Shown here: piece after piece, positions 1 through 19,371 of the stretch
How the letters are laid out: each line of letters begins with the position of its first letter
How positions within the stretch are numbered: position 1 is the stretch's first letter
Virus record (IMG/VR): IMGVR_UViG_3300002144_000512
Location: 1-24,171 of that record
DNA length: 24,171 bases
Strand: one strand, 5' to 3'
From: a virus
The notes under the pieces: generated by a model
Database searches by the model: none
Seen by the model: the letters and a program-made list of their open reading frames with translations, nothing else
What the model was told of the DNA's origin: nothing
Program-made: the position numbers and the translations under genes

Positions 1-1712
1 ACCTGAAACACCACTTACTCTATTAAGACCGTTACCACCATTATTACCTGAAGATCCAGTTGACCCTGAAGTACCCGATAAACCAGAATTTCCGTTATTA
101 CCATTATTACCATTAGATCCATTAGAACCTGATGAACCTGAAACACCACTAACTCTACTAACACCATTAGCGCCAGTAGCACCATTAGATCCATTAGACC
201 CTGAAGTACCTGATAAACCAGAATTTCCGTTATTACCATTAACACCGTTAGATCCATTCGTACCAGTCGAACCTGAAACACCACTTACTCTATTAAGACC
301 GTTACCACCATTATTACCATTAGATCCATTAGACCCTGAAGTACCTGAAACACCACTTACTCTACTAAGACCAGCAGCACCATTGTTACCTGAAGTACCA
401 GTAGAACCTGATGAACCTGAAGTACCACTTAGTGCAGAAACTCTATTAGCTCCAGCTACACCATTATTACCATTTGATCCATTTGAACCTGAAGTACCTG
501 ATAAACCAGAATTACCTGAGTTACCTGCAACGCCATTTGTACCATTAGATCCAGTTGAACCTGAAATACCACTAGCTCTACTAACACCATTAGCACCAGT
601 AGCACCAGCCGTACCAGCTGTACCTGATGAACCAGAAGATCCAGAAAGCGCTGAAACCCTATTAGCACCAGCAACTCCATTATTACCGCTTGATCCATTT
701 GAACCTGAAGTACCTGATAAACCAGAATTACCTGAGTTACCTGCCACACCGTTAGATCCATTCGTACCAGTCGAACCTGAAACACCACTTACTCTACTAA
801 GACCAGCAGCGCCATTGTCGCCTGAAGTACCAGTAGAACCTGATGAACCTGAAGTACCTGAAGATTTACTTGCTCTATCATCACCTTGTGTACCTGCTGT
901 TCCTGTTGAACCACTTGAACCACTTGATCCTGAAGGTCGACTTGTTCTATCATCACCTTGTGAACCTGCTGTACCAGTTGATCCTGATGAACCTGAAATA
1001 CCACTAACCCTACTAATACCATTAGCACCAGTATTACCTGAAGAACCATTAGTACCAGTTGAACCTGAAGATCCAGAAAGGGCTGAAGCACCGCTGTTTC
1101 CAGCTACACCAGCAGTACCATTTGTTCCCGAAGATCCAGTAGATCCTGATAATCCACTTACTCTGTTAAGTCCAGCTACACCGTTATTACCATTAGAACC
1201 TGATGTACCAGTAGAACCAGAAAGTGCTGAAGCACCACTATTACCACCTACACCAGCATTACCTGATGTCCCATTAGATCCAGTTGAACCAGAAGTACCT
1301 GATACATTAGAAGTACCTTTAATACCAGCCACACCGTTATTACCGTTAGAACCATTTGAACCTGATGTACCACTTAGTGCTGAAGCACCACTATTACCAA
1401 CTACACCGTTAACACCATTAGATCCTGACGAACCAGTAGAACCAGAAAGTGCTGAAACACCATTGTTTCCAGCAACACCGTTAACACCATTTGTACCATT
1501 AGATCCAGTAGAACCTGATAACCCACTAACTTTAGATAAACCGTTTATTCCGTTATTACCATTAGAACCTGATGTACCAGTAGAACCAGAGGTACCACTT
1601 AATGCCGAAACACCTTTATTACCTGCATTACCAACTGAACCAGAAGAGCCAGAAGAACCAGATGTCCCTGAAGGACCTGAAGTCCCACCATGACCAGCCG
1701 ATCCAGATGTAC
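1..1712 (-). repeat. Collagen-like Gly-X-Y coding repeats, first fibre gene
   Basis: On the minus strand almost every third codon is Gly (GGT/GGA; seen as acc/tcc on the plus strand). Triplets run GTS-GST-GSS-GTN-GTA-GVA-GNS-GLS-ALS, giving units of about 24-30 residues. Each unit ends in a triplet whose Gly is replaced (ALS, RLS, AIS, NLS, RVS). The array continues past the left edge. Confidence 0.85.
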
Positions 1713-2235
1713 CATCAGCAATTGTTCTTGTTGCTACTTTACCTGTACTTGAATTATAAACCAAATATTGTGGTAAATTATTATCTGTAGCTAAACCAGT
1801 TAAATTAACATTACCAGTTACTTTAGCATTACCTGTTACTTGAAAATTAGTACCATCGAATGTTAAGTTATTTTCACCGTTAATCGTAGACGCACTACCA
1901 GTAGCTGTAATAATTCTATTGTCAGCATTATTACTAATTCTAATAGTTTCAGAATTACCAGAATTACCCCTATACTCTATAGCATTTTTACTACTATTAA
2001 AGTATACCGAACCAATTTTAGCATTTACTGGTACAGATGTTACTACAGGGATATTAAGCTCTGTTTTTATATCAACGTTACTACCATTAATTGCCATCAA
2101 TAATGTAACCCCTTCATAAAAACCTAGGATACCATCACTCCCGTATTTTAGTTCAATATTATTAGTTGTGACACCCGATGTGTACACGAAGCTTAAACTA
2201 CCTTGCGCTGGTATAATTTTTACTGTATTTGCCAT
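1..2235 (-). CDS. Collagen-like tail-fibre protein, 3' end beyond the window
   Basis: The minus frame starts with ATG at 2235 (MANTVKIIPAQG) and stays open to position 1, so at least 745 residues are present and the C-terminus is missing. Residues 1 to about 174 form a non-repetitive, beta-rich head containing a segment (NNLTFDGTNFQVTGN) of a kind common in phage tail fibres. From about residue 175 the protein is a Gly-X-Y repeat rich in Ser, Thr, Asn and Ala, with almost no proline and with the Gly of a triplet replaced at regular intervals. Two local variants (GDDRASKSS, GDDRTSRPS) lie at roughly 860-960. It is probably a virion fibre that recognises the host surface. The next gene upstream (2264-6859) is a paralogue in its repeats but not in its N-terminal domain. 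A TATTTAT motif lies 14 nt before the ATG. Long open frames on the plus strand here are by-products of the repeat composition. Confidence 0.85.
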   Translation of the reverse strand, partial: MANTVKIIPAQGSLSFVYTSGVTTNNIELKYGSDGILGFYEGVTLLMAINGSNVDIKTELNIPVVTSVPVNAKIGSVYFNSSKNAIEYRGNSGNSETIRISNNADNRIITATGSASTINGENNLTFDGTNFQVTGNAKVTGNVNLTGLATDNNLPQYLVYNSSTGKVATRTIADGTSGSAGHGGTSGPSGTSGSSGSSGSVGNAGNKGVSALSGTSGSTGTSGSNGNNGINGLSKVSGLSGSTGSNGTNGVNGVAGNNGVSALSGSTGSSGSNGVNGVVGNSGASALSGTSGSNGSNGNNGVAGIKGTSNVSGTSGSTGSNGTSGNAGVGGNSGASALSGSTGTSGSNGNNGVAGLNRVSGLSGSTGSSGTNGTAGVAGNSGASALSGSSGSTGTNGSSGNTGANGISRVSGISGSSGSTGTAGSQGDDRTSRPSGSSGSSGSTGTAGTQGDDRASKSSGTSGSSGSTGTSGDNGAAGLSRVSGVSGSTGTNGSNGVAGNSGNSGLSGTSGSNGSSGNNGVAGANRVSALSGSSGSSGTAGTAGATGANGVSRASGISGSTGSNGTNGVAGNSGNSGLSGTSGSNGSNGNNGVAGANRVSALSGTSGSSGSTGTSGNNGAAGLSRVSGVSGTSGSNGSNGNNGGNGLNRVSGVSGSTGTNGSNGVNGNNGNSGLSGTSGSNGSNGATGANGVSRVSGVSGSSGSNGSNGNNGNNGNSGLSGTSGSTGSSGNNGGNGLNRVSGVSG

Positions 2236-2249
2236 TTTATGTTTTTATA

Positions 2250-2256
2250 ATAAATA
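2250..2256 (-). promoter_or_regulatory. Candidate late promoter motif TATTTAT
   Basis: TATTTAT on the minus strand ends 14 nt before the ATG at 2235, in the 28-nt gap between the two fibre genes. The same motif at similar spacing precedes several other late-type genes here. A late promoter role is inferred. Confidence 0.4.
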
Positions 2257-2263
2257 TAATTTT

Positions 2264-5200
2264 TTATTCTTTAATGTATTCTAATTTAGGTGCATTACCT
2301 TTTCTTTCAGCTGTTATAGTATAATAAGCGTTTACCTCACCACATTCGCAATCGATATTCACTTCATTATTAATTATACTTACAACATAATGTGTACACG
2401 CACTACCTATCGGTGTTAATTGTACTGTAATTGAATCAGCATAAACTAAATCAACCCAATAATCTGGTAGTTTAATTGTTTTATCTTTAGCGGTACCTCT
2501 TACATAAACACCATTTTCTGGCCCCTCTAATACAGCATATTGTAATCTATACGGATCACCTTTTGTTGGGTGAGGTATATCAAAGAATTTATTATTAGCT
2601 GATAATATGTTTAAGTTTTGGATATCAATAAAACCACCACCATCTAACCCATTTGCGCTTGCTTGGAATGGCTGACCAAATTCTGTGAATTGAGAACCAT
2701 CCCAATAAACCAACTCAGACGGATTAGTAGAGACAATATTTAAATCTAAAGTTCTGTTAGTATTTAATACACCACCACCAGTCAATCCAGTTCCTGCACT
2801 AATTGTCACATAAGTACCTGAAGTACCAACATTACCTGATATACCATTTGTACCTGATATACCATTTGTACCTGAAGTACCAGATGTACGTGAAGTACCA
2901 GAACCACCTGAATTACCAGTAGCACCAGAAGTACCGTTCGAACCAGCTGTACCTGATGAACCTGACGCATTAGATCTACCATTAGTACCAGCTACACCAC
3001 TAACACCGTTTGTACCATTAGAACCAGTAGTACCATTAGCACCATTAGTTCCTGACGAACCAGATGTTCCACTTAATCTACTAGCACCATTAGCACCGAC
3101 TAAACCAGTAGTACCATTAGTACCAGTAGATCCTGAAGATCCAGAAAGTGCTGAAGCACCTATAATACCAGTTTCTCCATTTGTACCATTAGTACCAGTA
3201 GACCCTGAAGACCCTGATAATCTAGATAAACCACTATTACCATTAACACCAGCCGTACCATTCGTACCTGATGAACCAGTTGAGCCTGAAGTTCCACTTA
3301 GTGCTGATACTCTATTTGTACCAACCACACCATTAGTACCGTTAGAACCAGATGACCCAGAAGTACCCGAAACAGCCGAAACTCTATTAAGTCCAGCTAC
3401 ACCGTTATTACCATTAGATCCAGAAGTACCTGTTGATCCACTTAGTGCAGAAGCACCACTGTTTCCAGCTACACCGTTAACACCGTTAGTACCTGCTGTA
3501 CCGTTTGATCCACTTAGTGCGGATAATCCACTGTTACCAGCTACACCATTATTACCATTTGTTCCAGATGAACCAGTTGAACCTGATGAACCAGATGTAC
3601 CACTTAATGCGGACAATCTATTAGCACCAGCAACACCAGCTGTACCACTAGTTCCTGACGAACCAGTTGACCCACTTAATGCAGATAAACCACTATTACC
3701 AACTACACCGTTAACACCGTTAGTACCTGATGTACCATTTGATCCACTCAATCTAGATAATCCACTAACACCATTATTACCTGACGTACCGTTTGTCCCA
3801 GTAGACCCTGAAGACCCTGATAATCTAGATAAACCACTATTACCTGCTACACCAGCAGTACCATTTGTTCCCGAAGAACCTGTTGATCCTGAGGTACCAC
3901 TTAGTGCTGAAACACCTTTATTCCCAGCGTTACCTGATGTACCATTTGTTCCAGTAGATCCTGAAGAACCGCTTAGTGCTGAAGCACCTATAATACCAGT
4001 ATCACCATTTGTACCATTAGTTCCAGCCGAACCTGAAGAACCACTTAGTGCAGATAAACCGCTATTACCAGCTACACCAGCAGTACCATTTGTTCCCGAA
4101 GAACCTGTTGATCCTGAAGTACCAGAAAGAGCTGAAAGACCTTTATTCCCAGCGTTACCTGACGTACCGTTTGTCCCAGTAGACCCTGATGAACCTGAAG
4201 GGCCTGAGGCACCTATAATACCAGCAACACCAAGACTACCATTAGATCCAGAAGATCCTGAGGTACCACTTAATGCACTTAAACCATTATTTCCGTTTAC
4301 ACCTACTGTACCATTTGTTCCTGAAGAACCTGTGGATCCCGAAGTACCTGAGCCACCTGACGTTCCTCTTGTTCCAGAGCTACCTGAAGAACCGCTTAGT
4401 GCTGAAGCACCTATAATACCAGTAGCACCATTAGTACCATTAGTTCCTGACGAACCAGATGTTCCACTTAATCTACTAGCACCATTAGTACCGACTAAAC
4501 CAGTAGTACCATTAGTACCTGACGAACCAGATAAACCACTTAATGTAGATAAACCACTAGTACTAGAAATACCTGAAGAACCGTTGGTTCCTGAAGTACC
4601 AGCAGTACCAGCACTACCTGAAGAACCATTAGTATTAATAGATAATTGGAATGTTATATCGTCACCGTTAGTTGGTGTCCATTGTGCACCAGAAACGTAA
4701 CTAACAACTACTTCTGTCCATGTCGCTTGCGGTAATGGTACTTGAGTTGTTACATAATATGTCGTACCACCCGAACCAGTTACCGTAATATTCGTACCTA
4801 TCGGTAATGATTGGATAATTGATGTATAATCTATAGAATTAAGTGAAACATAAGCAAGATTAAAATATTGACTTGATGAATCTATGTTATTATTGAAACT
4901 ATTAACAACCCCATTAGCTAATGGACTATTCCAATCCCAAATATCATTAATTGCAGCACCACTAACACCGCTAGTTCCAGACGAACCAGACGAACCAGCT
5001 GTACCAGATAAATTAGAAATACCTTTAATACCTGCTGTACCATTAGTACCTGAAGATCCAGTAGAACCAGAGGTTCCTGAAACTGCTGAAACTCTATTAG
5101 CTCCAGCTACACCAACCGTACCAGCTGTACCAGTAGAACCTGAAGTTCCTGATATATTACTTAAACTATTAACACCTGCATTACCAGCCGTACCATTAGT

Positions 5201-6859
5201 TCCTGACGAACCTGAAGTTCCTGAATTAGCACTTAAACCACTATTTCCAGCAACACCTGCTGTACCTGCGGTACCTGTGGATCCAGCTGTACCTGACGTT
5301 GCACTTAAAGGGCTATTACCAGCTACACCAGCCGTACCGTTTGTTCCTGAAGATCCTGTTGATCCCGATGAACCGCTTAGTGCTGAAGCACCTATAATAC
5401 CAGTATCACCATTTGTACCATTAGTACCTGAAGATCCTGAAGACCCGCTTAATCTAGATAAACCACTATTACCAGCTACACCTGCGGTACCGTTTGTACC
5501 TGATGAACCTGTGGATCCCGAAGTACCAGAAATAGCTGAAAGTCTATTAGCTCCAGCTACACCAGCAGTACCAGCTGTACCAGTAGAACCTGAAGTTCCT
5601 GATATATTACTCAAACTATTAGCACCCGCATTACCAGCTGTACCATCAGATCCTGATGAACCCGATGTTCCTGAAAGATTAGATGTACCTTTATTACCAA
5701 CAACACCGATTGTACCATTAGTTCCAGTTGAACCTGAGGTTCCTGAATTAGCACTTAAACCACTATTACCAGCTACACCTGCGGTACCGTTTGTACCTGA
5801 TGAACCTGTGGATCCCGAAGTACCAGAAATAGCTGAAAGACTACTAGCTCCAACTACACCTGCTGTACCGTTAGTACCTGAAGAACCCGTAGATCCTGAT
5901 GAACCACTTAGTGCGGATAAACCGCTGTTTCCTATTACACCAGCCGTACCATTCGTTCCCGAGGTTCCAGTTGAACCTGAATTTGAACTCAAACCATTAT
6001 TACCAGCTACACCAGCTGTACCATTAGTACCAGAAGTACCCGTTGAACCAGAAAGTGCTGAAGCACCACTATTACCAGCTATACCATCTGTTCCATTTGT
6101 TCCTGAAGATCCAGTAGATCCACTTAGTGCGGATAAACCACTATTACCAGCTACACCAGCAGTACCATTAGACCCTGAAGATCCTGAAGAACCACTTAAT
6201 GCACTTAAACCGCTATTTCCAGTTATACCTGCGGTTCCGTTTGTCCCCGAAGAACCTGTAGAACCAGAGGTTCCTGAAAGATTAGATGTACCTTTATTAC
6301 CAGCAGTACCATTTGTTCCTGAAGACCCAGTTGACCCAGAAGATCCAGAAAGTGCTGAAGCACCACTATTTCCAGCTACACCAGTAGTACCATTTGTTCC
6401 CGAAGATCCAGTAGATCCTGAGGTACCAGAAATAGCTGAAACTCTATTAATACCCGCTACACCTGTTGTACCAGCTGTACCAGATGAACCTGAAGATCCA
6501 GAAACACCGCTTTGACCAGAACTACCAGCCGTACCACTAGTTCCAGAAACTACTTCAGAAAACTCAAAGTTACCCGTAGAATTGTCATATGAAACAAAAT
6601 GAGTAGGGTTATTATTTTGTGATAAACTTGAAGCAGAAATGGTATCTATAGATACATCTCTTGTATTTTCAAAGTCTCCAGTAACACTATTATAAGCCAA
6701 TAAATCCCCATTTTGAGGATTTAAGACCACGATGTCATTGAGGTCGGATATACCCAATCCCTCTACAGCCGTTTTAATATTTTGAAAATTAGCATCTAAC
6801 TCAGTATAAGATAGTGCTCGACCTAAATTTTGTCTAAGGTAGATTGTTACTGTCGCCAT
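2264..6859 (-). CDS. Giant collagen-like tail-fibre protein (1531 aa)
   Basis: The N-terminus (MATVTIYLRQNLGRALSYTELDANFQNI) matches the opening seen in tail-fibre and structural proteins of T4-like marine phages. Approximate layout: residues 1-105 N-terminal domain; 106-633 collagen-like Gly-X-Y block; 634-743 globular insert (AAINDIWDWNSPLANG onward); 743-1348 second collagen-like block; 1349-1531 C-terminal domain. The C-terminal domain has the stretches TGLTGGGVLNTNRTL and, near residue 1425, FDIPHPTKGDPYRLQYAVLE, then LPDYWVDLV and DSITVQLTPIG. I recognise this as a C-terminal module shared by many marine T4-like phage fibre proteins. The repeats almost lack proline (GPS and SPL are exceptions). 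Its probable role is a long, distal fibre for host attachment. The exact fibre (tail, whisker or head) cannot be told. Confidence 0.88.
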   Translation of the reverse strand: MATVTIYLRQNLGRALSYTELDANFQNIKTAVEGLGISDLNDIVVLNPQNGDLLAYNSVTGDFENTRDVSIDTISASSLSQNNNPTHFVSYDNSTGNFEFSEVVSGTSGTAGSSGQSGVSGSSGSSGTAGTTGVAGINRVSAISGTSGSTGSSGTNGTTGVAGNSGASALSGSSGSTGSSGTNGTAGNKGTSNLSGTSGSTGSSGTNGTAGITGNSGLSALSGSSGSSGSNGTAGVAGNSGLSALSGSTGSSGTNGTDGIAGNSGASALSGSTGTSGTNGTAGVAGNNGLSSNSGSTGTSGTNGTAGVIGNSGLSALSGSSGSTGSSGTNGTAGVVGASSLSAISGTSGSTGSSGTNGTAGVAGNSGLSANSGTSGSTGTNGTIGVVGNKGTSNLSGTSGSSGSDGTAGNAGANSLSNISGTSGSTGTAGTAGVAGANRLSAISGTSGSTGSSGTNGTAGVAGNSGLSRLSGSSGSSGTNGTNGDTGIIGASALSGSSGSTGSSGTNGTAGVAGNSPLSATSGTAGSTGTAGTAGVAGNSGLSANSGTSGSSGTNGTAGNAGVNSLSNISGTSGSTGTAGTVGVAGANRVSAVSGTSGSTGSSGTNGTAGIKGISNLSGTAGSSGSSGTSGVSGAAINDIWDWNSPLANGVVNSFNNNIDSSSQYFNLAYVSLNSIDYTSIIQSLPIGTNITVTGSGGTTYYVTTQVPLPQATWTEVVVSYVSGAQWTPTNGDDITFQLSINTNGSSGSAGTAGTSGTNGSSGISSTSGLSTLSGLSGSSGTNGTTGLVGTNGASRLSGTSGSSGTNGTNGATGIIGASALSGSSGSSGTRGTSGGSGTSGSTGSSGTNGTVGVNGNNGLSALSGTSGSSGSNGSLGVAGIIGASGPSGSSGSTGTNGTSGNAGNKGLSALSGTSGSTGSSGTNGTAGVAGNSGLSALSGSSGSAGTNGTNGDTGIIGASALSGSSGSTGTNGTSGNAGNKGVSALSGTSGSTGSSGTNGTAGVAGNSGLSRLSGSSGSTGTNGTSGNNGVSGLSRLSGSNGTSGTNGVNGVVGNSGLSALSGSTGSSGTSGTAGVAGANRLSALSGTSGSSGSTGSSGTNGNNGVAGNSGLSALSGSNGTAGTNGVNGVAGNSGASALSGSTGTSGSNGNNGVAGLNRVSAVSGTSGSSGSNGTNGVVGTNRVSALSGTSGSTGSSGTNGTAGVNGNSGLSRLSGSSGSTGTNGTNGETGIIGASALSGSSGSTGTNGTTGLVGANGASRLSGTSGSSGTNGANGTTGSNGTNGVSGVAGTNGRSNASGSSGTAGSNGTSGATGNSGGSGTSRTSGTSGTNGISGTNGISGNVGTSGTYVTISAGTGLTGGGVLNTNRTLDLNIVSTNPSELVYWDGSQFTEFGQPFQASANGLDGGGFIDIQNLNILSANNKFFDIPHPTKGDPYRLQYAVLEGPENGVYVRGTAKDKTIKLPDYWVDLVYADSITVQLTPIGSACTHYVVSIINNEVNIDCECGEVNAYYTITAERKGNAPKLEYIKE
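2812..6545 (-). repeat. Collagen-like Gly-X-Y coding repeats, second fibre gene
   Basis: Two blocks of Gly-X-Y triplets (about 2812-4630 and 4957-6545) flank a globular insert. Units of 24-30 residues follow the same consensus as the first fibre gene, each closed by a triplet whose Gly is replaced by Ala, Arg or Asn. Near-identical units, such as those around 5440-5530 and 5760-5830, suggest recent expansion by recombination. Confidence 0.85.
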
Positions 6860-6931: not shown

Positions 6932-9397
6932 CTAAATTTTAATCACAATCTTTAGTTTATCTAACTTAGTATTCATTGTTACGTTTATACCACCAGACTT
7001 AGGCATATACTTAATAAGCATTTCATCTGATATAGGATCTTCAATTAGTTTACGTATTGTGCGCTGAATTTCTCTAGCTCCATATGTTTTATCATAACCA
7101 ACTTTTAGTATAAATTCCTTGGATTTTTTATCTATTTTAAAAGAAAAACCATTTTCACTTAATCTATCTGAAAATTCATTTAATTGTAGATCTATTATTT
7201 TACCAATATTATCTTCGGATAAGTAATTAAAATGAATAATCTCATCTAGACGATTAATAAATTCAGGTTTAAACGTCTTCTTCATATTTTTCTCAATTAT
7301 TTCTTTAGAATTAATTTCATCGGATTCTGAGTCACTAAAACCAATCTTTGAACCAAAATCCTGAACTTCCTTCAACCCAATGTTAGATGTCATTATAATA
7401 ACGGTATTTTTAAAATTAATTTTACGACCATTAGCATCTGTTAAAAACCCCTCATCTAGCAACTGTAACATCACATTAAAAATATCTGGATGAGCCTTTT
7501 CAATTTCATCAAAAAGAATTAATGAGTACGGGTTATTTTTAACTTTTTCAGTTAATTGACCACCCTCATTATAACCAACATATCCTGGAGGCGCACCTAT
7601 AATCTTACTGATATTAAATTTTTCAGAGTATTCAGACATGTCCAATCTGATTATCGAATCTTTTGAACCAAAAACATTTTCAGCTAAAGCTTTAGCTAAC
7701 TCAGTCTTACCAACACCAGTTGGTCCAATAAAAAGAAAAGAACCAATAGGTTTAGATTGTTTCCTAAAACCAGTTTTATTTCTTTTTATTGAAGAAACAA
7801 CTTTTTCAATAGCATCACGTTGACCGATAACACAATCAGATAAGGTCTCAGTCATATTTAATAACTTTTCTAAATCACTTTCAGTAACCCTACTAACAGG
7901 AATACCAGTCATCATTGAAACAACTTCTGATATCATATCTGGTGTGATAACTGACCTACACTCATTAACAGATAATCTCCACGCAACATTCTCTTTTTCC
8001 AAATCTGTTAATATTTTTTTCTCTGAATCCCTCAAACTAGCTGCCATCTCAAAGTTCTGAGTCCTTACAACTCTAGACTTCTCTTCTTTAACTAATTTTA
8101 GTTCTTGTTCTAAATCTTTAATATTTTGTGGAGCTTTTATAGATACCTGAGTTCTAGAACCAACCTCATCCATGATATCGATAGCTTTATCAGGAAACTC
8201 CCTATTAGTTATATACCTGTCGGATAATGAAATGATTTCATCAATAGCTTCTTCTGAATACGTTGTTTTATGGAAATCCTCATACTTAGACTTAATATTC
8301 ATTAATATTTCTTTAGTCTCACTTAGCGATGGTGGGTTCACCATAACTTTCTGGAATCTCCTATCTAATGCACCATCCTTTTCAATATTTTCACGATACT
8401 CGTCTAAAGTAGTAGCACCTATACATTGAAGTTCACCTCTAGCTAAAGCTGGTTTAAATACGTTTGCAGCATCTAATGAACCAGAAGAATTACCAGCACC
8501 GACAATAGTGTGAATCTCATCTATAAATAAAATTACATCTGGATTTTCTTTAGCTTCATCTATAATAGCTTTAATCCTCTCCTCAAACTGTCCACGATAT
8601 TTTGTACCAGCAACTAAAGACGTCATATCTAAAGTAATAACACGTTTACCGATCAAAGGTCTAGGGCAGTCACCAGTCGCTATTTTGATGGCCAACCCTT
8701 CAGCAATAGCTGTTTTACCAACACCTGGATCACCAATAAGGATAGGGTTATTCTTTTTTCTACGTGTTAATATCTGACAAACCCTCTCAACCTCTTCAGA
8801 CCTCCCAATAACTGGGTCTAAAATATCTTCTAAAGCTAACGCAGTTAAGTCACGACCAAAGCTATCTAACATAGGGGTCTTATTTTTACCACCCTTATTA
8901 GGGATCTCTTGTGACCTCCTAGGTCTAGGTAATTCATTTTCGTTTGATGGTGTATCCATATTTTTTGATGATGTTAATTGTTTAATTTTTCTTGATATAA
9001 ATGTTTTTGTTAACCCGAAATCTTTAAATATCTTAACAAAAGCTTCATCGCTTTCCATAGATACCATAAAGAATAATTCAGCTGTTATGTATTCACTAAT
9101 CTTTTTTCTCTTTATACATTCTTTTATAGTTATCTGCAAACCTGGTTCAAATGGAAGTATAGCACTCGCACCATCATTAAGTGTATCTGATGTTCGTCTA
9201 CTTAGATTATTTAAATCATTAACTAACACATCAAAGTCAACTACTTTATTTTTAACAACTTCGCATACTAGATTCTCAGTTGTTAATACCCCGTAAATAA
9301 CATGTTGCAATCTAAGCATTGAATCGTCATATCTCAAAGCAATTGACTGACCCTTTGTAAAAGCGGTTCTCAACTCATTTGTCATTCTATCTTTCAT
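6932..9397 (-). CDS. clpC: ClpC-type AAA+ unfoldase (Clp protease ATP-binding subunit)
   Basis: The product has 821 residues in standard ClpA/ClpC order. A divergent Clp N-domain spans about 1-145. D1 AAA+ has Walker A GDPGVGKT (222-229), Walker B VILFIDE (288-294), pore loop KYRGQ (about 266-270) and arginine finger GALDRRF (342-348). A UVR-like coiled segment at about 428-465 marks it as ClpC-like. D2 has Walker A GPTGVGKT (558-565), pore loop GYVGYNEGG, Walker B LILFDE and sensor-2 GAR (773-775). An IGF tripeptide (685-687) sits where ClpC and ClpA carry the ClpP-docking loop, so coupling to a ClpP (host or phage) is plausible; no clpP lies in this window. Both ATPase sites look intact. 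It should unfold protein substrates in the cytoplasm, possibly redirecting host proteolysis. A host-type promoter lies 20 nt upstream, suggesting early expression. The 5' end is duplicated at 10421-10612. Confidence 0.93.
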   Translation of the reverse strand: MKDRMTNELRTAFTKGQSIALRYDDSMLRLQHVIYGVLTTENLVCEVVKNKVVDFDVLVNDLNNLSRRTSDTLNDGASAILPFEPGLQITIKECIKRKKISEYITAELFFMVSMESDEAFVKIFKDFGLTKTFISRKIKQLTSSKNMDTPSNENELPRPRRSQEIPNKGGKNKTPMLDSFGRDLTALALEDILDPVIGRSEEVERVCQILTRRKKNNPILIGDPGVGKTAIAEGLAIKIATGDCPRPLIGKRVITLDMTSLVAGTKYRGQFEERIKAIIDEAKENPDVILFIDEIHTIVGAGNSSGSLDAANVFKPALARGELQCIGATTLDEYRENIEKDGALDRRFQKVMVNPPSLSETKEILMNIKSKYEDFHKTTYSEEAIDEIISLSDRYITNREFPDKAIDIMDEVGSRTQVSIKAPQNIKDLEQELKLVKEEKSRVVRTQNFEMAASLRDSEKKILTDLEKENVAWRLSVNECRSVITPDMISEVVSMMTGIPVSRVTESDLEKLLNMTETLSDCVIGQRDAIEKVVSSIKRNKTGFRKQSKPIGSFLFIGPTGVGKTELAKALAENVFGSKDSIIRLDMSEYSEKFNISKIIGAPPGYVGYNEGGQLTEKVKNNPYSLILFDEIEKAHPDIFNVMLQLLDEGFLTDANGRKINFKNTVIIMTSNIGLKEVQDFGSKIGFSDSESDEINSKEIIEKNMKKTFKPEFINRLDEIIHFNYLSEDNIGKIIDLQLNEFSDRLSENGFSFKIDKKSKEFILKVGYDKTYGAREIQRTIRKLIEDPISDEMLIKYMPKSGGINVTMNTKLDKLKIVIKI

Positions 9398-9417
9398 ATT
9401 TAATTTGAATATTTAAA

Positions 9418-9448
9418 CAAAGGTAGTGTTATACTTTACAATTACAAA
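9418..9448 (-). promoter_or_regulatory. Bacteroidota-type promoter of clpC
   Basis: On the minus strand TTTG (9448-9445), a 19-nt spacer and TACCTTTG (9425-9418) match the Bacteroidota primary-sigma consensus (TTTG, 19-21 nt, TAnnTTTG). The ATG follows 20 nt later, so the leader is short and A/T-rich with no Shine-Dalgarno sequence. Confidence 0.75.
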
Positions 9449-9481
9449 ATATATTATAACTTTATTCATAAATAAATATAT

Positions 9482-9718
9482 ATGGAAAAGATAACAATTT
9501 ACTTTAATAACGGAAAATTCAAAGAATTTCCTGATGGGTCTATCGCAGTGGTATCTGGTAATTATTTAACAATTACCGTAAAAAGTACTGTTGAATCAGA
9601 TAATAATGATCACCTGTTGGTAACAACAACAAATATATTTGATTTAAATGAAGTCAAAACATTTGTAAAAATAAATAAAACGATTAAAGTTGATTATAGT
9701 TATGTCAGTGAAAAGTAA
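9482..9718 (+). CDS. Small protein of unknown function, copy 1 (78 aa)
   Basis: The product starts MEKITIYFNNGKF and shows alternating beta-strand-like segments (TIYFNNGKF, SIAVVSGNYLTITV, HLLVTTTNIF) with no membrane segment or known motif that I can name. It opens an operon read divergently from clpC and its end overlaps the KTSC gene by 17 nt, which suggests translational coupling. No clear host-type or TATTTAT promoter is seen before it; the leader is very AT-rich (ATAAATAAATATAT). An identical copy lies at 10697-10933. Confidence 0.7.
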   Translation: MEKITIYFNNGKFKEFPDGSIAVVSGNYLTITVKSTVESDNNDHLLVTTTNIFDLNEVKTFVKINKTIKVDYSYVSEK

Positions 9719-9944
9719 GGATTATATAGGTGAGAATGTTGTAGTTGAGTACGAGAGCTCAAATATCAAACAAGGTAAATACAATATACCAAATAAAAAA
9801 TTGCAAATAACATTTAACACAGGTTCTATTTATGAGTATGATGGAGTACCTCATGATGTTTTTGCTGAATTTAATTTAGCGGAAAGCCAGGGTAAGTACT
9901 TTAATAGTAAAATTGCTAAAAATTACACTTTCAAAAAACTATAA
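9702..9944 (+). CDS. KTSC-domain protein, copy 1
   Basis: From ATG at 9702 (MSVKSKDYIG) the product is 80 residues; an in-frame TTG at 9690 is a less likely start. The core YESSNIKQGKYNI, LQITFNTGSIYEYDGVP and SQGKYFNSKI fits the KTSC domain, a small beta-rich domain named for its occurrence at the C-terminus of some lysyl-tRNA synthetases and common as a stand-alone phage protein. Its biochemical role is not established. The start overlaps the 3' end of 9482-9718 and the next gene follows 3 nt after its stop. The second copy is 10917-11159 with identical protein. Confidence 0.8.
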   Translation: MSVKSKDYIGENVVVEYESSNIKQGKYNIPNKKLQITFNTGSIYEYDGVPHDVFAEFNLAESQGKYFNSKIAKNYTFKKL

Positions 9945-9947
9945 AAC

Positions 9948-10412
9948 ATGTTTATTGATGTAACAAAAGATTCTAGCGCCAACATAACATTCAACGATAT
10001 GGCAAAGGTGTCTATAAGGGGTGATAAGAGTTATAATGTCCTGTGGTATTATAATAACGAATTAGTACACGAGTTTTACCTAAATAGTGGTACGTGGGCT
10101 GGTATACCAATGGATGGTATTGGTGACTGGGTTATAGAGTTCTGGGATGAGGGTAATTTAGTTAACACTTACAATAACACGGTTAATGATAAAGATATAA
10201 TGATTATATTTAATAATGATGGTAATGAATTGGGTGAATTCGTTAAAAGGATTAAAAATTACTCAAACGAATTAATTAGCAGACTCAATATAAACCTGTA
10301 TGTATTTTTTAAAGGTTCTGAATTATGTGATTTTACTGATACCAGAATTAAACCACTTAGGTTGAATGATAAGATTGATAATTTTAATATGATTTATAGT
10401 AAAACATTATAA
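9948..10412 (+). CDS. Unknown protein, copy 1; resembles the N-terminal part of TibC-like glycosyltransferases
   Basis: This 154-aa protein has a beta-rich first half (YNVLWYYNNELVHEFYLNSGTWAGI, GDWVIEFWDEGNLVNTY, DIMIIFNNDGNELGEFVKRI). The order of these blocks recalls the N-terminal sandwich and first Rossmann strand of autotransporter (TibC/BAHTCr-like) glycosyltransferases, but the protein stops before any catalytic region, so enzyme activity is not supported. The resemblance is from memory and weak. The stop codon TAA shares its last A with the following ATG (10412), the usual coupling arrangement. Here that following gene is a broken oxygenase start; the intact pairing is in copy 2 (11163-11627). 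Confidence 0.65.
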   Translation: MFIDVTKDSSANITFNDMAKVSIRGDKSYNVLWYYNNELVHEFYLNSGTWAGIPMDGIGDWVIEFWDEGNLVNTYNNTVNDKDIMIIFNNDGNELGEFVKRIKNYSNELISRLNINLYVFFKGSELCDFTDTRIKPLRLNDKIDNFNMIYSKTL

Positions 10413-10486
10413 TGGATAATTTAGTTAGGATTTACGAACAACACATCAAAGTCAACCACTTTATTTTTAACAACTTCGCATACTAG
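10412..10486 (+). pseudogene. Truncated 5' fragment of the 2OG-Fe(II) oxygenase gene
   Basis: The first nine codons (MDNLVRIYE) equal those of the intact oxygenase at 11627. The frame then crosses the duplication junction into antisense clpC sequence and ends at TAG (10484-10486) after 24 residues. No catalytic residue remains. Confidence 0.85.
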
Positions 10487-10612
10487 ATTCTCAGTTGTTA
10501 ATACCCCGTAAATAACATGTTGCAATCTAAGCATTGAATCGTCATATCTCAAAGCAATTGACTGACCCTTTGTAAAAGCGGTTCTCAACTCATTTGTCAT
10601 TCTATCTTTCAT
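10421..10612 (-). pseudogene. Truncated 5' fragment of clpC
   Basis: The first 58 codons match clpC (MKDRMTNELRTAF to VVDFDVL), then the junction adds FVNPN and a stop. Only the start of the N-domain remains. Its promoter (10633-10663) is intact, so a transcript could run leftward, antisense to 9482-10412, and join the true clpC gene. Confidence 0.85.
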
Positions 10613-10632
10613 ATTTAATTTGAATATTTAAA

Positions 10633-10663
10633 CAAAGGTAGTGTTATACTTTACAATTACAAA
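10633..10663 (-). promoter_or_regulatory. Duplicated Bacteroidota-type clpC promoter
   Basis: Identical to the clpC promoter at 9418-9448, shifted by 1215 bp (TACCTTTG at 10640-10633, TTTG at 10663-10660 on the minus strand). It now drives only the clpC remnant or an antisense read-through transcript. Confidence 0.65.
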
Positions 10664-10696
10664 ATATATTATAACTTTATTCATAAATAAATATAT

Positions 10697-10933
10697 ATGG
10701 AAAAGATAACAATTTACTTTAATAACGGAAAATTCAAAGAATTTCCTGATGGGTCTATCGCAGTGGTATCTGGTAATTATTTAACAATTACCGTAAAAAG
10801 TACTGTTGAATCAGATAATAATGATCACCTGTTGGTAACAACAACAAATATATTTGATTTAAATGAAGTCAAAACATTTGTAAAAATAAATAAAACGATT
10901 AAAGTTGATTATAGTTATGTCAGTGAAAAGTAA
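10697..10933 (+). CDS. Small protein of unknown function, copy 2 (78 aa)
   Basis: Identical in DNA and protein to 9482-9718. This copy heads the intact operon that continues through the KTSC gene (17-nt overlap) and the 154-aa gene to the full oxygenase. The function is not recognised; the product looks beta-rich and soluble. Confidence 0.7.
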   Translation: MEKITIYFNNGKFKEFPDGSIAVVSGNYLTITVKSTVESDNNDHLLVTTTNIFDLNEVKTFVKINKTIKVDYSYVSEK

Positions 10934-11159
10934 GGATTATATAGGTGAGAATGTTGTAGTTGAGTACGAGAGCTCAAATATCAAACAAGGTAAATACAAT
11001 ATACCAAATAAAAAATTGCAAATAACATTTAACACAGGTTCTATTTATGAGTATGATGGAGTACCTCATGATGTTTTTGCTGAATTTAATTTAGCGGAAA
11101 GCCAGGGTAAGTACTTTAATAGTAAAATTGCTAAAAATTACACTTTCAAAAAACTATAA
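10917..11159 (+). CDS. KTSC-domain protein, copy 2
   Basis: Identical to 9702-9944. The ATG at 10917 gives 80 residues; an in-frame TTG exists at 10905. The KTSC core (SSNIKQGKYNI, FNTGSIYEYDGVP, GKYFNSKI) is complete. With copy 1 the gene dosage is doubled. Confidence 0.8.
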   Translation: MSVKSKDYIGENVVVEYESSNIKQGKYNIPNKKLQITFNTGSIYEYDGVPHDVFAEFNLAESQGKYFNSKIAKNYTFKKL

Positions 11160-11162
11160 AAC

Positions 11163-11627
11163 ATGTTTATTGATGTAACAAAAGATTCTAGCGCCAACAT
11201 AACATTCAACGATATGGCAAAGGTGTCTATAAGGGGTGATAAGAGTTATAATGTCCTGTGGTATTATAATAACGAATTAGTACACGAGTTTTACCTAAAT
11301 AGTGGTACGTGGGCTGGTATACCAATGGATGGTATTGGTGACTGGGTTATAGAGTTCTGGGATGAGGGTAATTTAGTTAACACTTACAATAACACGGTTA
11401 ATGATAAAGATATAATGATTATATTTAATAATGATGGTAATGAATTGGGTGAATTCGTTAAAAGGATTAAAAATTACTCAAACGAATTAATTAGCAGACT
11501 CAATATAAACCTGTATGTATTTTTTAAAGGTTCTGAATTATGTGATTTTACTGATACCAGAATTAAACCACTTAGATTGAATGATAAGATTGATAATTTT
11601 AATATGATTTATAGCAAAACATTATAA
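11163..11627 (+). CDS. Unknown protein, copy 2; resembles the N-terminal part of TibC-like glycosyltransferases
   Basis: Protein identical to 9948-10412; two silent base differences lie at 11576 and 11615. The final A of its stop is the first base of the oxygenase ATG (11627), so the two proteins are probably made in a coupled way. It may therefore act with the oxygenase, but that is only inferred from position. Confidence 0.65.
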   Translation: MFIDVTKDSSANITFNDMAKVSIRGDKSYNVLWYYNNELVHEFYLNSGTWAGIPMDGIGDWVIEFWDEGNLVNTYNNTVNDKDIMIIFNNDGNELGEFVKRIKNYSNELISRLNINLYVFFKGSELCDFTDTRIKPLRLNDKIDNFNMIYSKTL

Positions 11628-16334: not shown

Positions 16335-16691
16335 ATGAAATATCTTGATTTAACAAAATACCACCAGACGTACTCTGATGATACCGAGTTAATGCTAGTT
16401 GACATTAATACGTTAATGAATCGTCTTAGGTTAGATAACCCTGAGTATTTCATAGACATTACAACTAAAAATAGTAATAGTATTTCTCGAATAGATAGTT
16501 CTATTAATTACATTCAGCGTAATTCTTTAAATGAGGGTTGTTTTGAAGCGCCTTTACTAGGTGTTGATAGTGGTAAAATTGGTGTTATTGATGGTAGACA
16601 CAGAATAGCTGCATCAAAAAAAATTGGGTACTCCCACATCTATGTAGAAATACCCAATCGGTATAAAATTAGTTTATCGGATCTTATTTAA
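16335..16691 (+). CDS. ParB/sulfiredoxin-fold protein
   Basis: The start is set at ATG 16335 (MKYLDLTKYHQTYS) because the promoter box overlaps the earlier in-frame ATG at 16317. The 118-aa product ends with FEAPLLGVDSGKIGVIDGRHRIAASKKIGYSHIYVEIP, which has the DGRHRxAA signature of the ParB/Srx N-terminal fold. Stand-alone phage members are diverse (DNA-binding, nuclease or nucleotide-binding) and there is no HTH domain here, so a partition role is unlikely. Its 3' end overlaps the convergent gene 16684-17331 by 8 nt. Confidence 0.75.
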   Translation: MKYLDLTKYHQTYSDDTELMLVDINTLMNRLRLDNPEYFIDITTKNSNSISRIDSSINYIQRNSLNEGCFEAPLLGVDSGKIGVIDGRHRIAASKKIGYSHIYVEIPNRYKISLSDLI

Positions 16692-17357: not shown

Positions 17358-17912
17358 TTATTCAACTAAATTCTGAAAGTCATATATATTACTTGGTACT
17401 GGTTTTAAATACTCAAAACCATAAAAAGCAATCATGCTAGTATTTTCTCTAATATTTTGATTTTGAACCAAAGATTTATGTGAATAACTATTAATCACTG
17501 ACTTAGAACCGTAACCACAAATGGTATATTCAGTGTCACTTATTTTACATATAAAAATTGATTTTTTATATATCGGGTAGTAAAATATAGGAAACTCACC
17601 ATCATTGAAAACAATTATATCAACCCATTTACCAGCGTACCTTCTAAATTGATCAATAATAGGTGTGTCTAGATCATTAAAATCTATTATGGGGTACTCA
17701 ATCCTATTTGAAATTGCTGTTATCTGACAAACCAACGAGAAGATACCCTTATACCTATCATTATTTTTTCCCAATTCAATAACACCTAAATCATGTTTTA
17801 TTAGATTATTAATGTAAGACACACAATTATGTATATCACCACTACTCAGCACAATTTTACTGAATTTATGTTCGTGTTTTTCAAACACTTCGTTAAATTT
17901 TAATATTCCCAT
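17358..17912 (-). CDS. Unknown protein divergent from the helicase (184 aa)
   Basis: The product begins MGILKFNEVFEKHEHKF. It is a soluble alpha/beta protein rich in aromatic residues and Ile (WVDIIVFNDGEFPIFYYPIYKKSIFICKI), with no family that I recognise. The start codon lies inside the left arm of a 20-bp inverted repeat shared with the helicase gene, and a host-type promoter box ends 5 nt before the ATG. Co-expression with the helicase from mirror-image promoters suggests an early role, perhaps in replication or host takeover. Confidence 0.65.
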   Translation of the reverse strand: MGILKFNEVFEKHEHKFSKIVLSSGDIHNCVSYINNLIKHDLGVIELGKNNDRYKGIFSLVCQITAISNRIEYPIIDFNDLDTPIIDQFRRYAGKWVDIIVFNDGEFPIFYYPIYKKSIFICKISDTEYTICGYGSKSVINSYSHKSLVQNQNIRENTSMIAFYGFEYLKPVPSNIYDFQNLVE

Positions 17913-17917
17913 GGGGA

Positions 17918-17949
17918 CAAAATTAAATAAAAGTTTGCTTTAAACCAAA
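17918..17949 (-). promoter_or_regulatory. Bacteroidota-type promoter of the 17912 gene
   Basis: On the minus strand TTTG (17949-17946), a 20-nt spacer and TAATTTTG (17925-17918), 5 nt before the ATG. It is the mirror image of the helicase promoter and implies a near-leaderless transcript. Confidence 0.7.
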
Positions 17950-17965
17950 TAAATTCCTAATTTTG
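17934..17965 (+). promoter_or_regulatory. Bacteroidota-type promoter of the helicase gene
   Basis: TTTG (17934-17937), a 20-nt spacer and TAATTTTG (17958-17965), 5 nt before ATG 17971. Its -33 box overlaps the spacer of the opposing promoter, so the two promoters may compete for polymerase. Confidence 0.7.
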
Positions 17966-17970
17966 TCCCC

Positions 17971-19371
17971 ATGGGAAATAAATATACTAAGGAACAACTT
18001 GAGTTTATAGAGTTTAACGGACCTGAATCCGTTATATTATCAGCAACAGCTGGTAGTGGTAAAACACATTCAACAGTAGGTAGATTAAAACAATTACTCG
18101 ATAATGGTGTTGACCCAGAAAGAATTATATTCTTTTCATTTACTAACGATGCGGTCAACGAACTGAGAACTAGAATCGGTGAAGGTGTTAAGATAACAAC
18201 AATACATAGTTTTACGAGTAGTATATTAGGTAAATTAGGTAAATTTAAACCAATCGTAACTTTCTACGACTTTATATCATGGTATCGTGAAAAAAAGAAA
18301 CCGTCTTTTAAAGATTCAAGAAAAGCTAGGGACGACTACTATAAGACCATCGAAAAATTCTATGAGGAGGGTTCTGGTATTTCATCAGCGTTCGCTTCAT
18401 ATAAACTACAATTCTATGATGGCGTGAGATCACCAAAACCATCGTACTACGATGACTATGTAACTTTCTTAAAGACAACCAATAGTCGTGACTTTTCTGA
18501 TATGTTAATAGATACCGAAAAATTATCTAAAAGTAAAGAACATAAAGATTTCTTTAACGGATTATACGATTATGTTTTTGTTGATGAATATCAAGATACA
18601 TCAACGTTACAAATGAAAATATTATCAGCTATAAACGCTAAACAATATTGTCTAATCGGTGACAAAAACCAATCGATATATGGTTTTTCTGGTGCCAACT
18701 GCTTAATGATAGAATCTTTATTGAAGGAAAAGAAAACAGTTGTTGAATTAACATTAACCAAGAATTTTAGATCACATAAAAAAATTGTAGAGAACGCTAA
18801 CAAATTTAGTTCACTAAAAGCTATAGCTGAATCAGAGATAGATGGGTTTGTTGACCATAAGTTTATAAACAATACTCAGTTATTTGAAATGTTAAAGGAC
18901 GGTAACCCCTTAACGGTATTAATCAGAACAAATAATGTTATTAAAGAAATAGAAAAGAAGTGTCTTAAAAAAAGGATACCAATGAGATATTTTAACTATA
19001 TAACTAAAACAGACTTAGATAAAATTGTTAAATCTGACTTAACAGATGCGTTAAAAAAGAAAATTAACGAAGTGCTACCATACTACATGGATTTAGATGA
19101 ATTAGTTGGTTTTATAAAATCAAATCTTGAATCGGAAGTATTTATCACATCTATACATAAAAGCAAAGGACGTGAGTTTCCGAGGTGTATTGTGGTTAAT
19201 TCAGCTGACCCACAAATGCTATTGGATTACGGTAGTTTAACACATGATTTAACAGATTATTCATTTATAACTGATGATGGTATAGTTGATGAGGAAAGTC
19301 GAAACATACACTATGTTGCTGTGACTAGACCCAAGGAAGAACTATACTTCATGATATACGATGACATGTAA
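17971..19371 (+). CDS. UvrD/PcrA-like superfamily 1A DNA helicase, compact
   Basis: This 466-aa protein has the SF1A motifs in order: Q-motif YTKEQLEFI near the start, Walker A SATAGSGKT (24-32), motif Ia FFSFTNDAVNEL, Walker B VFVDEYQDTS (202-211), motif III GDKNQSIYGFSGA (230-242), motif IV LTKNFRSHKKI, motif V ITSIHKSKGREFPRCIVV and motif VI YVAVTRPKEELYF. It is shorter than bacterial UvrD (about 720 aa), so the accessory 1B/2B subdomains are reduced, as in other phage helicases. It should translocate 3' to 5' on single-stranded DNA and act in replication, recombination or repair. The Q-motif lies so close to the N-terminus that ATG 17971 must be the start. A terminator follows the stop. 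Confidence 0.92.
   Translation: MGNKYTKEQLEFIEFNGPESVILSATAGSGKTHSTVGRLKQLLDNGVDPERIIFFSFTNDAVNELRTRIGEGVKITTIHSFTSSILGKLGKFKPIVTFYDFISWYREKKKPSFKDSRKARDDYYKTIEKFYEEGSGISSAFASYKLQFYDGVRSPKPSYYDDYVTFLKTTNSRDFSDMLIDTEKLSKSKEHKDFFNGLYDYVFVDEYQDTSTLQMKILSAINAKQYCLIGDKNQSIYGFSGANCLMIESLLKEKKTVVELTLTKNFRSHKKIVENANKFSSLKAIAESEIDGFVDHKFINNTQLFEMLKDGNPLTVLIRTNNVIKEIEKKCLKKRIPMRYFNYITKTDLDKIVKSDLTDALKKKINEVLPYYMDLDELVGFIKSNLESEVFITSIHKSKGREFPRCIVVNSADPQMLLDYGSLTHDLTDYSFITDDGIVDEESRNIHYVAVTRPKEELYFMIYDDM

Follow-up and report, generated by a model that had tools for sequence, protein, structure and literature searches.

A mirror-symmetric, interleaved promoter pair in a phage lineage, with start regions most likely made alike by DNA copying between the arms

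A virus record of 24,171 bases, referred to here in its full length as the window, contains two mirror-image divergent promoters within a perfect 20-bp inverted repeat, and the arms of this repeat reach through the start codons of both genes. The reading we favour, at a probability of roughly 0.6, is that the locus is a bidirectional promoter block of the Bacteroidota primary (sigma-ABfr) type serving two genes with predicted leaderless mRNAs, in which the promoter pair is old and the arms have been extended by homogenisation.

The two 20-nt arms (TCCCCATGGGAA) are 100% complementary and lie 32 nt apart (Table 1), whereas the perfect inverted repeats in 12 dinucleotide-shuffled versions of the window reached at most 10–13 nt. 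Read outwards, each arm comprises the -7 box TAATTTTG, the gap TCCCC and then ATGGGAA, and the two agree for 12 nt past the boxes; per arm, the consensus of the promoter accounts for about 8 nt and the ATG for 3, with the remainder in excess. The 32-nt centre, present in the window in standard orientation, runs 8 nt, TTTG, 8 nt, CAAA, 8 nt (8-4-8-4-8), where TTTG serves the plus promoter as its -33 box and CAAA, i.e. TTTG on the opposite strand, serves the minus promoter; each -33 box is placed inside the 20-nt spacer of the opposite promoter. The combination of TAATTTTG and TTTG at 20 nt is found on both strands and conserved in relatives, and it corresponds to primary promoters of Bacteroidota, which have the same boxes (TTTG / TAnnTTTG) and a spacer of ~20 nt (PMC6847099, PMC9723704, PMC7366714). 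A scan for E. coli-type promoters gave background level only. The sequence-only reading, which had described a perfect 20-bp inverted repeat holding mirror-image divergent promoters, proved exact in this respect, and the promoters are kept across a phage lineage. An RNA hairpin was also considered and was rejected, because the two arms belong to opposite transcripts.

Table 1. Features of the promoter block and the two genes adjoining it (positions in the window).
Feature	Position	Strand	Remark
Left arm: -7 box, gap TCCCC, first codons ATGGGAA of minus-strand gene	17906..17925	-	
Right arm: -7 box, gap TCCCC, first codons ATGGGAA of helicase gene	17958..17977	+	
-7 box TAATTTTG, minus promoter	17918..17925	-	TAnnTTTG consensus (PMC6847099)
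-7 box TAATTTTG, plus promoter	17958..17965	+	
-33 box TTTG, plus promoter	17934..17937	+	8 nt from minus-strand -7 box, 20-nt spacer
-33 box TTTG, minus promoter	17946..17949	-	8 nt from plus-strand -7 box, 20-nt spacer
Spacer between arms, 32 nt	17926..17957	.	contains both -33 boxes
Gap and ATG of minus-strand gene	gap 17917-17913, ATG 17912-17910	-	
Gap and ATG of plus-strand gene	gap 17966-17970, ATG 17971-17973	+	
Minus-strand gene, 184 aa	17358..17912	-	uncharacterised phage protein
Helicase gene, 466 aa	17971..19371	+	UvrD/Rep-type superfamily 1

A pattern consisting of only the four boxes at their set spacing was run on IMG/VR and matched 71 viral stretches, about 61 of which represent the homologous locus by gene content, with the UvrD-helicase on one side and a protein of 184–190 aa on the other; roughly ten are at different places, some of them perhaps matched by chance. 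A helicase search yielded 36 loci with 76–82% protein identity, and the alignment was extended to relatives at ~63–65% identity and beyond. Judged from these sequences, the promoter pair is ancestral, as is its spacing, and both have long been kept in this phage lineage. The gaps from box to ATG differ among loci, with TCCCC, TAAAC, TAAAT, TTAAC, TCCC, ACCC, TGGT, TGTC and TCAA among those on the helicase side and TCCCC, TGTC, TGTT, TCCT, TGACAT, TCACAT and TAAAC among those on the minus side; at most loci they are asymmetric, and the extended symmetry is absent from most relatives. Since the gaps vary and are mostly asymmetric, boxes and spacing are what selection keeps. The sequence-only reading had also considered equal early expression of the two genes; identity of the arms, at least, is not required, as relatives with unequal arms exist.

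These gaps also bear on an operator, proposed in the sequence-only reading, at which one regulator would bind both start regions and control both genes together. Perfect symmetry over 20 bp would suit such a site, and divergent genes often have common regulators. We nevertheless regard it as quite unlikely, given that relatives with both genes and both promoters at the same spacing carry unrelated, mostly asymmetric gaps (TAAAC/TGTC, TGGC/TGACAT, ACCC/TGTT etc.) with no conserved half-site, the very pattern that had been set beforehand as speaking against an operator. In addition, the arm is without a second copy in the record, where a search suggested by the same reading found the 16-mer TAATTTTGTCCCCATG nowhere else in the 24 kb, even with 3 mismatches, and the two abutting -33 boxes account for the central palindrome, TTTGGTTT or TTTGTTTT being read at single promoters of these phages as well.

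Among 64 distances from box to ATG in the phages, 34 measure 4–6 nt, one more 8 nt and the others 13–24 nt, while distances of 0–3 or 9–12 nt do not occur; on this sample the short spacing is one of two start classes and no quirk of the window. In Flavobacterium johnsoniae the -7 box occupies positions -12 to -5 and transcription starts 4–5 nt after the box (PMC6847099). As a gap of 5 nt would place the start at the ATG or a single base ahead of it, the mRNAs of both genes should, by Flavobacterium spacing, be leaderless, and the near-leaderless starts described earlier find support in the 5-nt gaps, with leaderless status itself deduced from spacing. Compared with these phage genes, which have 4–6 nt from box to ATG, Bacteroidota host mRNAs are mostly leadered: 87% of leaders in F. 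johnsoniae exceed 10 nt (PMC6847099), leaderless mRNAs make up 5.5% in F. psychrophilum (PMC9723704), and ~3.7% of 5' UTRs in B. thetaiotaomicron are shorter than 10 nt (PMC7366714). Another near-leaderless start, TATATTTG followed by 4 nt and ATG, is conserved at the MKYL gene at 16335 of the window and in its relatives.

The mirror symmetry in this phage was most likely completed by a slip in DNA copying, in which the start region was copied between the genes. Three separate contigs (L049, L113 and L013) carry the minus-side gap TAAAC and are nested in the helicase tree within a clade with the minus-side gap TGTC (TGTT in L111). Their TAAAC is an exact copy, including a 1-nt insertion, of the helicase-side gap shared by most of the clade. 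Alignment of the L049 lineage with L117 revealed this clustered gap change and, within the promoter core, just one further difference; set against L117, L112, L118, L107 and L111, it is a clustered multi-base change on one branch, and in our analysis it is the product expected of template switching at a quasipalindrome. For the window, the nearest relatives are ~77% identical in helicase DNA: its sister L127 has TCCC-ATGGAA on one side and TCCT-ATGAGT on the other, its sister L109 ACCC-ATGGAA and TGTT-ATGAGT, both being too distant to give the ancestral state and the direction of copying in the window. Only the window's helicase has Gly as its second codon; in relatives this codon is Lys, Glu or Ser. 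Pairing of the gaps was higher within loci than across loci (permutation p 0.0038, with related loci treated as separate). The earlier suggestion of a recently copied cassette consequently holds in part: copying between the sides looks recent for the start-region arms, but the promoters as a pair are old.

Two outcomes have been reported for template switching between inverted repeats in yeast, homogenisation of the arms and inversion of the spacer (PMC8604942). The second was found in L109/L110, the closest relatives of the window by helicase protein identity: when their 32-nt spacer is turned round, its matches to the window and L127 amount to 13 and 12 of 16 flank positions, compared with 4 and 7 of 16 uninverted. 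Against a profile of near relatives the log-likelihood ratio is -13.6 nats in favour of inversion (shuffle p 0.0003), whereas all other near relatives, with positive ratios, have the standard orientation. In L137/L138 the spacer may also be inverted with respect to other lineages, a leaning only, these being too diverged to call. The tally amounts to two clear homogenised lineages and only one clear spacer inversion. Template switching is indicated by the gap copy in the L049 lineage, the 12-nt match of the window's arms and the inverted spacer of L109/L110 taken together.

An inverted spacer would also be left by an invertible, phase-variable promoter, on whose inverted repeat a site-specific recombinase acts, and such promoters are known in Bacteroidales (PMC8748976). 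For this locus we consider it very improbable: flipping a symmetric pair leaves the choice of the active gene unchanged, the arms show no conservation as recombination sites, they are separated by only 32 nt, and no recombinase was found among the ten window proteins scanned.

Among the matches listed, the 8-4-8-4-8 geometry was also present in chromosomes of Paludibacteraceae and other Bacteroidales, where the sites adjoin many unrelated divergent gene pairs. Two of these genomes place the opposite -7 box 8 nt from the -33 box in 21 of 38 and 36 of 57 cases, and the reversed control of both contains none. Many divergent promoters with the 8-nt distance and a TTTGCATATATGCAAA-like centre were noted in each of the genomes G001 and G003, which hold L197 and L184. 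The idea of a geometry common to Bacteroidota as a whole was dropped, since only G003 had many matches among 198 genomes sampled across the phylum, the other five genomes with a match having one each, at about the level of the reversed control. At the chromosomal interleaved promoters the median distance from box to ATG is 23 nt. Arm copying was not apparent in the 118 chromosomal promoters of identical geometry that were compared, which display no excess similarity past the boxes (z 0.02); with these sites at background, the geometry alone does not make arms match.

The chromosomal sites are relevant to convergence, by which the two sides would have become identical independently of each other, both genes being under the same selective demands (a -7 box, a short gap, good initiation). 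Box and ATG are constraints common to both sides, the palindrome CCCATGGG renders one arm partly self-complementary, and C-rich gaps of short, TCCC-like form turn up in other lineages too (L127, L131), so that some convergence is possible. As an explanation of the whole it is rather unlikely, because the two sides usually differ in other lineages, the L049 lineage matches in several neighbouring bases and a length change at once, and chromosomal promoters with the same geometry lack similarity of the gaps.

Under the favoured reading of an old promoter pair with homogenised arms, the primary sigma factor of the host (Bacteroidota sigma-ABfr type, -33 TTTG / -7 TAnnTTTG) would use both promoters. 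Since the two overlap completely and are interleaved, RNA polymerase would presumably bind in one orientation at a time. The two transcripts would begin with their AUG, or a single base ahead of it, yielding leaderless mRNAs of the helicase and the uncharacterised protein. During replication, a nascent strand may fold back on the imperfect inverted repeat and copy the opposite arm, by which the repeat would be made perfect and the symmetry extended through the gaps and first codons of both genes. A further-reaching view, which we advance only tentatively, is that interleaved bidirectional promoters of fixed geometry form a distinct class of Bacteroidota and their phages, whose symmetry acts as a self-renewing hotspot of template switching and spreads into both coding starts; a block so symmetric would then tolerate both the copying of its arms and the inversion of its spacer.

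The protein encoded on the minus strand matches no Pfam or PHROG family, and no convincing solved-structure relative was found by sequence. Its predicted model is confident (mean pLDDT 92.6), and its relatives at the level of structure are uncharacterised phage proteins. A fold search gave NhoI as the best solved match (Z 5.4), followed by DpnI and PvuII, with weak scores; PD-(D/E)XK-type restriction nucleases would thereby be its closest solved structures, by matches too weak for an assignment. As sole query the protein retrieved no relatives, these being reached via the helicase. An annotated phage collection contained no related phage DNA for this locus, and the helicase relatives there are only ~20–30% identical. 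In L149 (2402-3403; also in L150 and L151) an intein-like sequence was observed in the Walker A region of the helicase, which in L149 ends ...VTHN and continues directly with THSTVGR.

Elsewhere in the window, a perfect direct repeat of 1118 nt (9243-10360 and 10458-11575, at a spacing of 1215 nt) duplicates three small genes and the 5' end of a ClpB-like gene, and is either a real duplication or an assembly artefact. Two very long collagen-like GTSGSSG repeat proteins of 745+ and 1531 aa, encoded at 1-6859, are probably tail fibres.

Bidirectional promoters of E. coli (Warman, Grainger and colleagues, PMC12825309) likewise combine symmetric DNA with divergent transcription, and two RNA polymerases cannot bind them at once. 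They possess one shared -10 element, with starts most often 18 bp apart, whereas in the phage block a shared symmetric -10 is replaced by two separate -7 boxes 32 nt apart with interleaved -33 boxes, the predicted starts lie at a distance of ~57 nt and leaderless mRNAs are predicted. The phage block would work like a bidirectional promoter, yet is not of the shared -10 type. A literature search of partial coverage returned nothing relevant on bidirectional promoters in Bacteroidetes. Quasipalindromes subject to template switching in Saccharomyces cerevisiae (PMC8604942) and E. coli (PMC7202029) likewise undergo multi-nucleotide, arm-equalising changes and spacer inversion; what differs here, by comparison, is that promoter symmetry would supply the unfinished repeat and that the block also holds both start codons. 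Bacteroidales chromosomal promoters share the 8-4-8-4-8 geometry but differ, among the matches listed, in their longer distance to ATG and in being free of homogenisation.

What is new is the combination of two known kinds of element, bidirectional promoters and quasipalindrome homogenisation. Followed through one phage lineage, a single locus displays arm copying as well as spacer inversion, a naturally occurring and replicated example of a copying slip and a symmetric promoter that may strengthen one another. For Bacteroidota, the finding suggests a layout of bidirectional promoters, the spacing of which is strongly fixed in one group of Bacteroidales; it also points to predicted leaderless phage mRNAs in a phylum whose hosts rarely use them.
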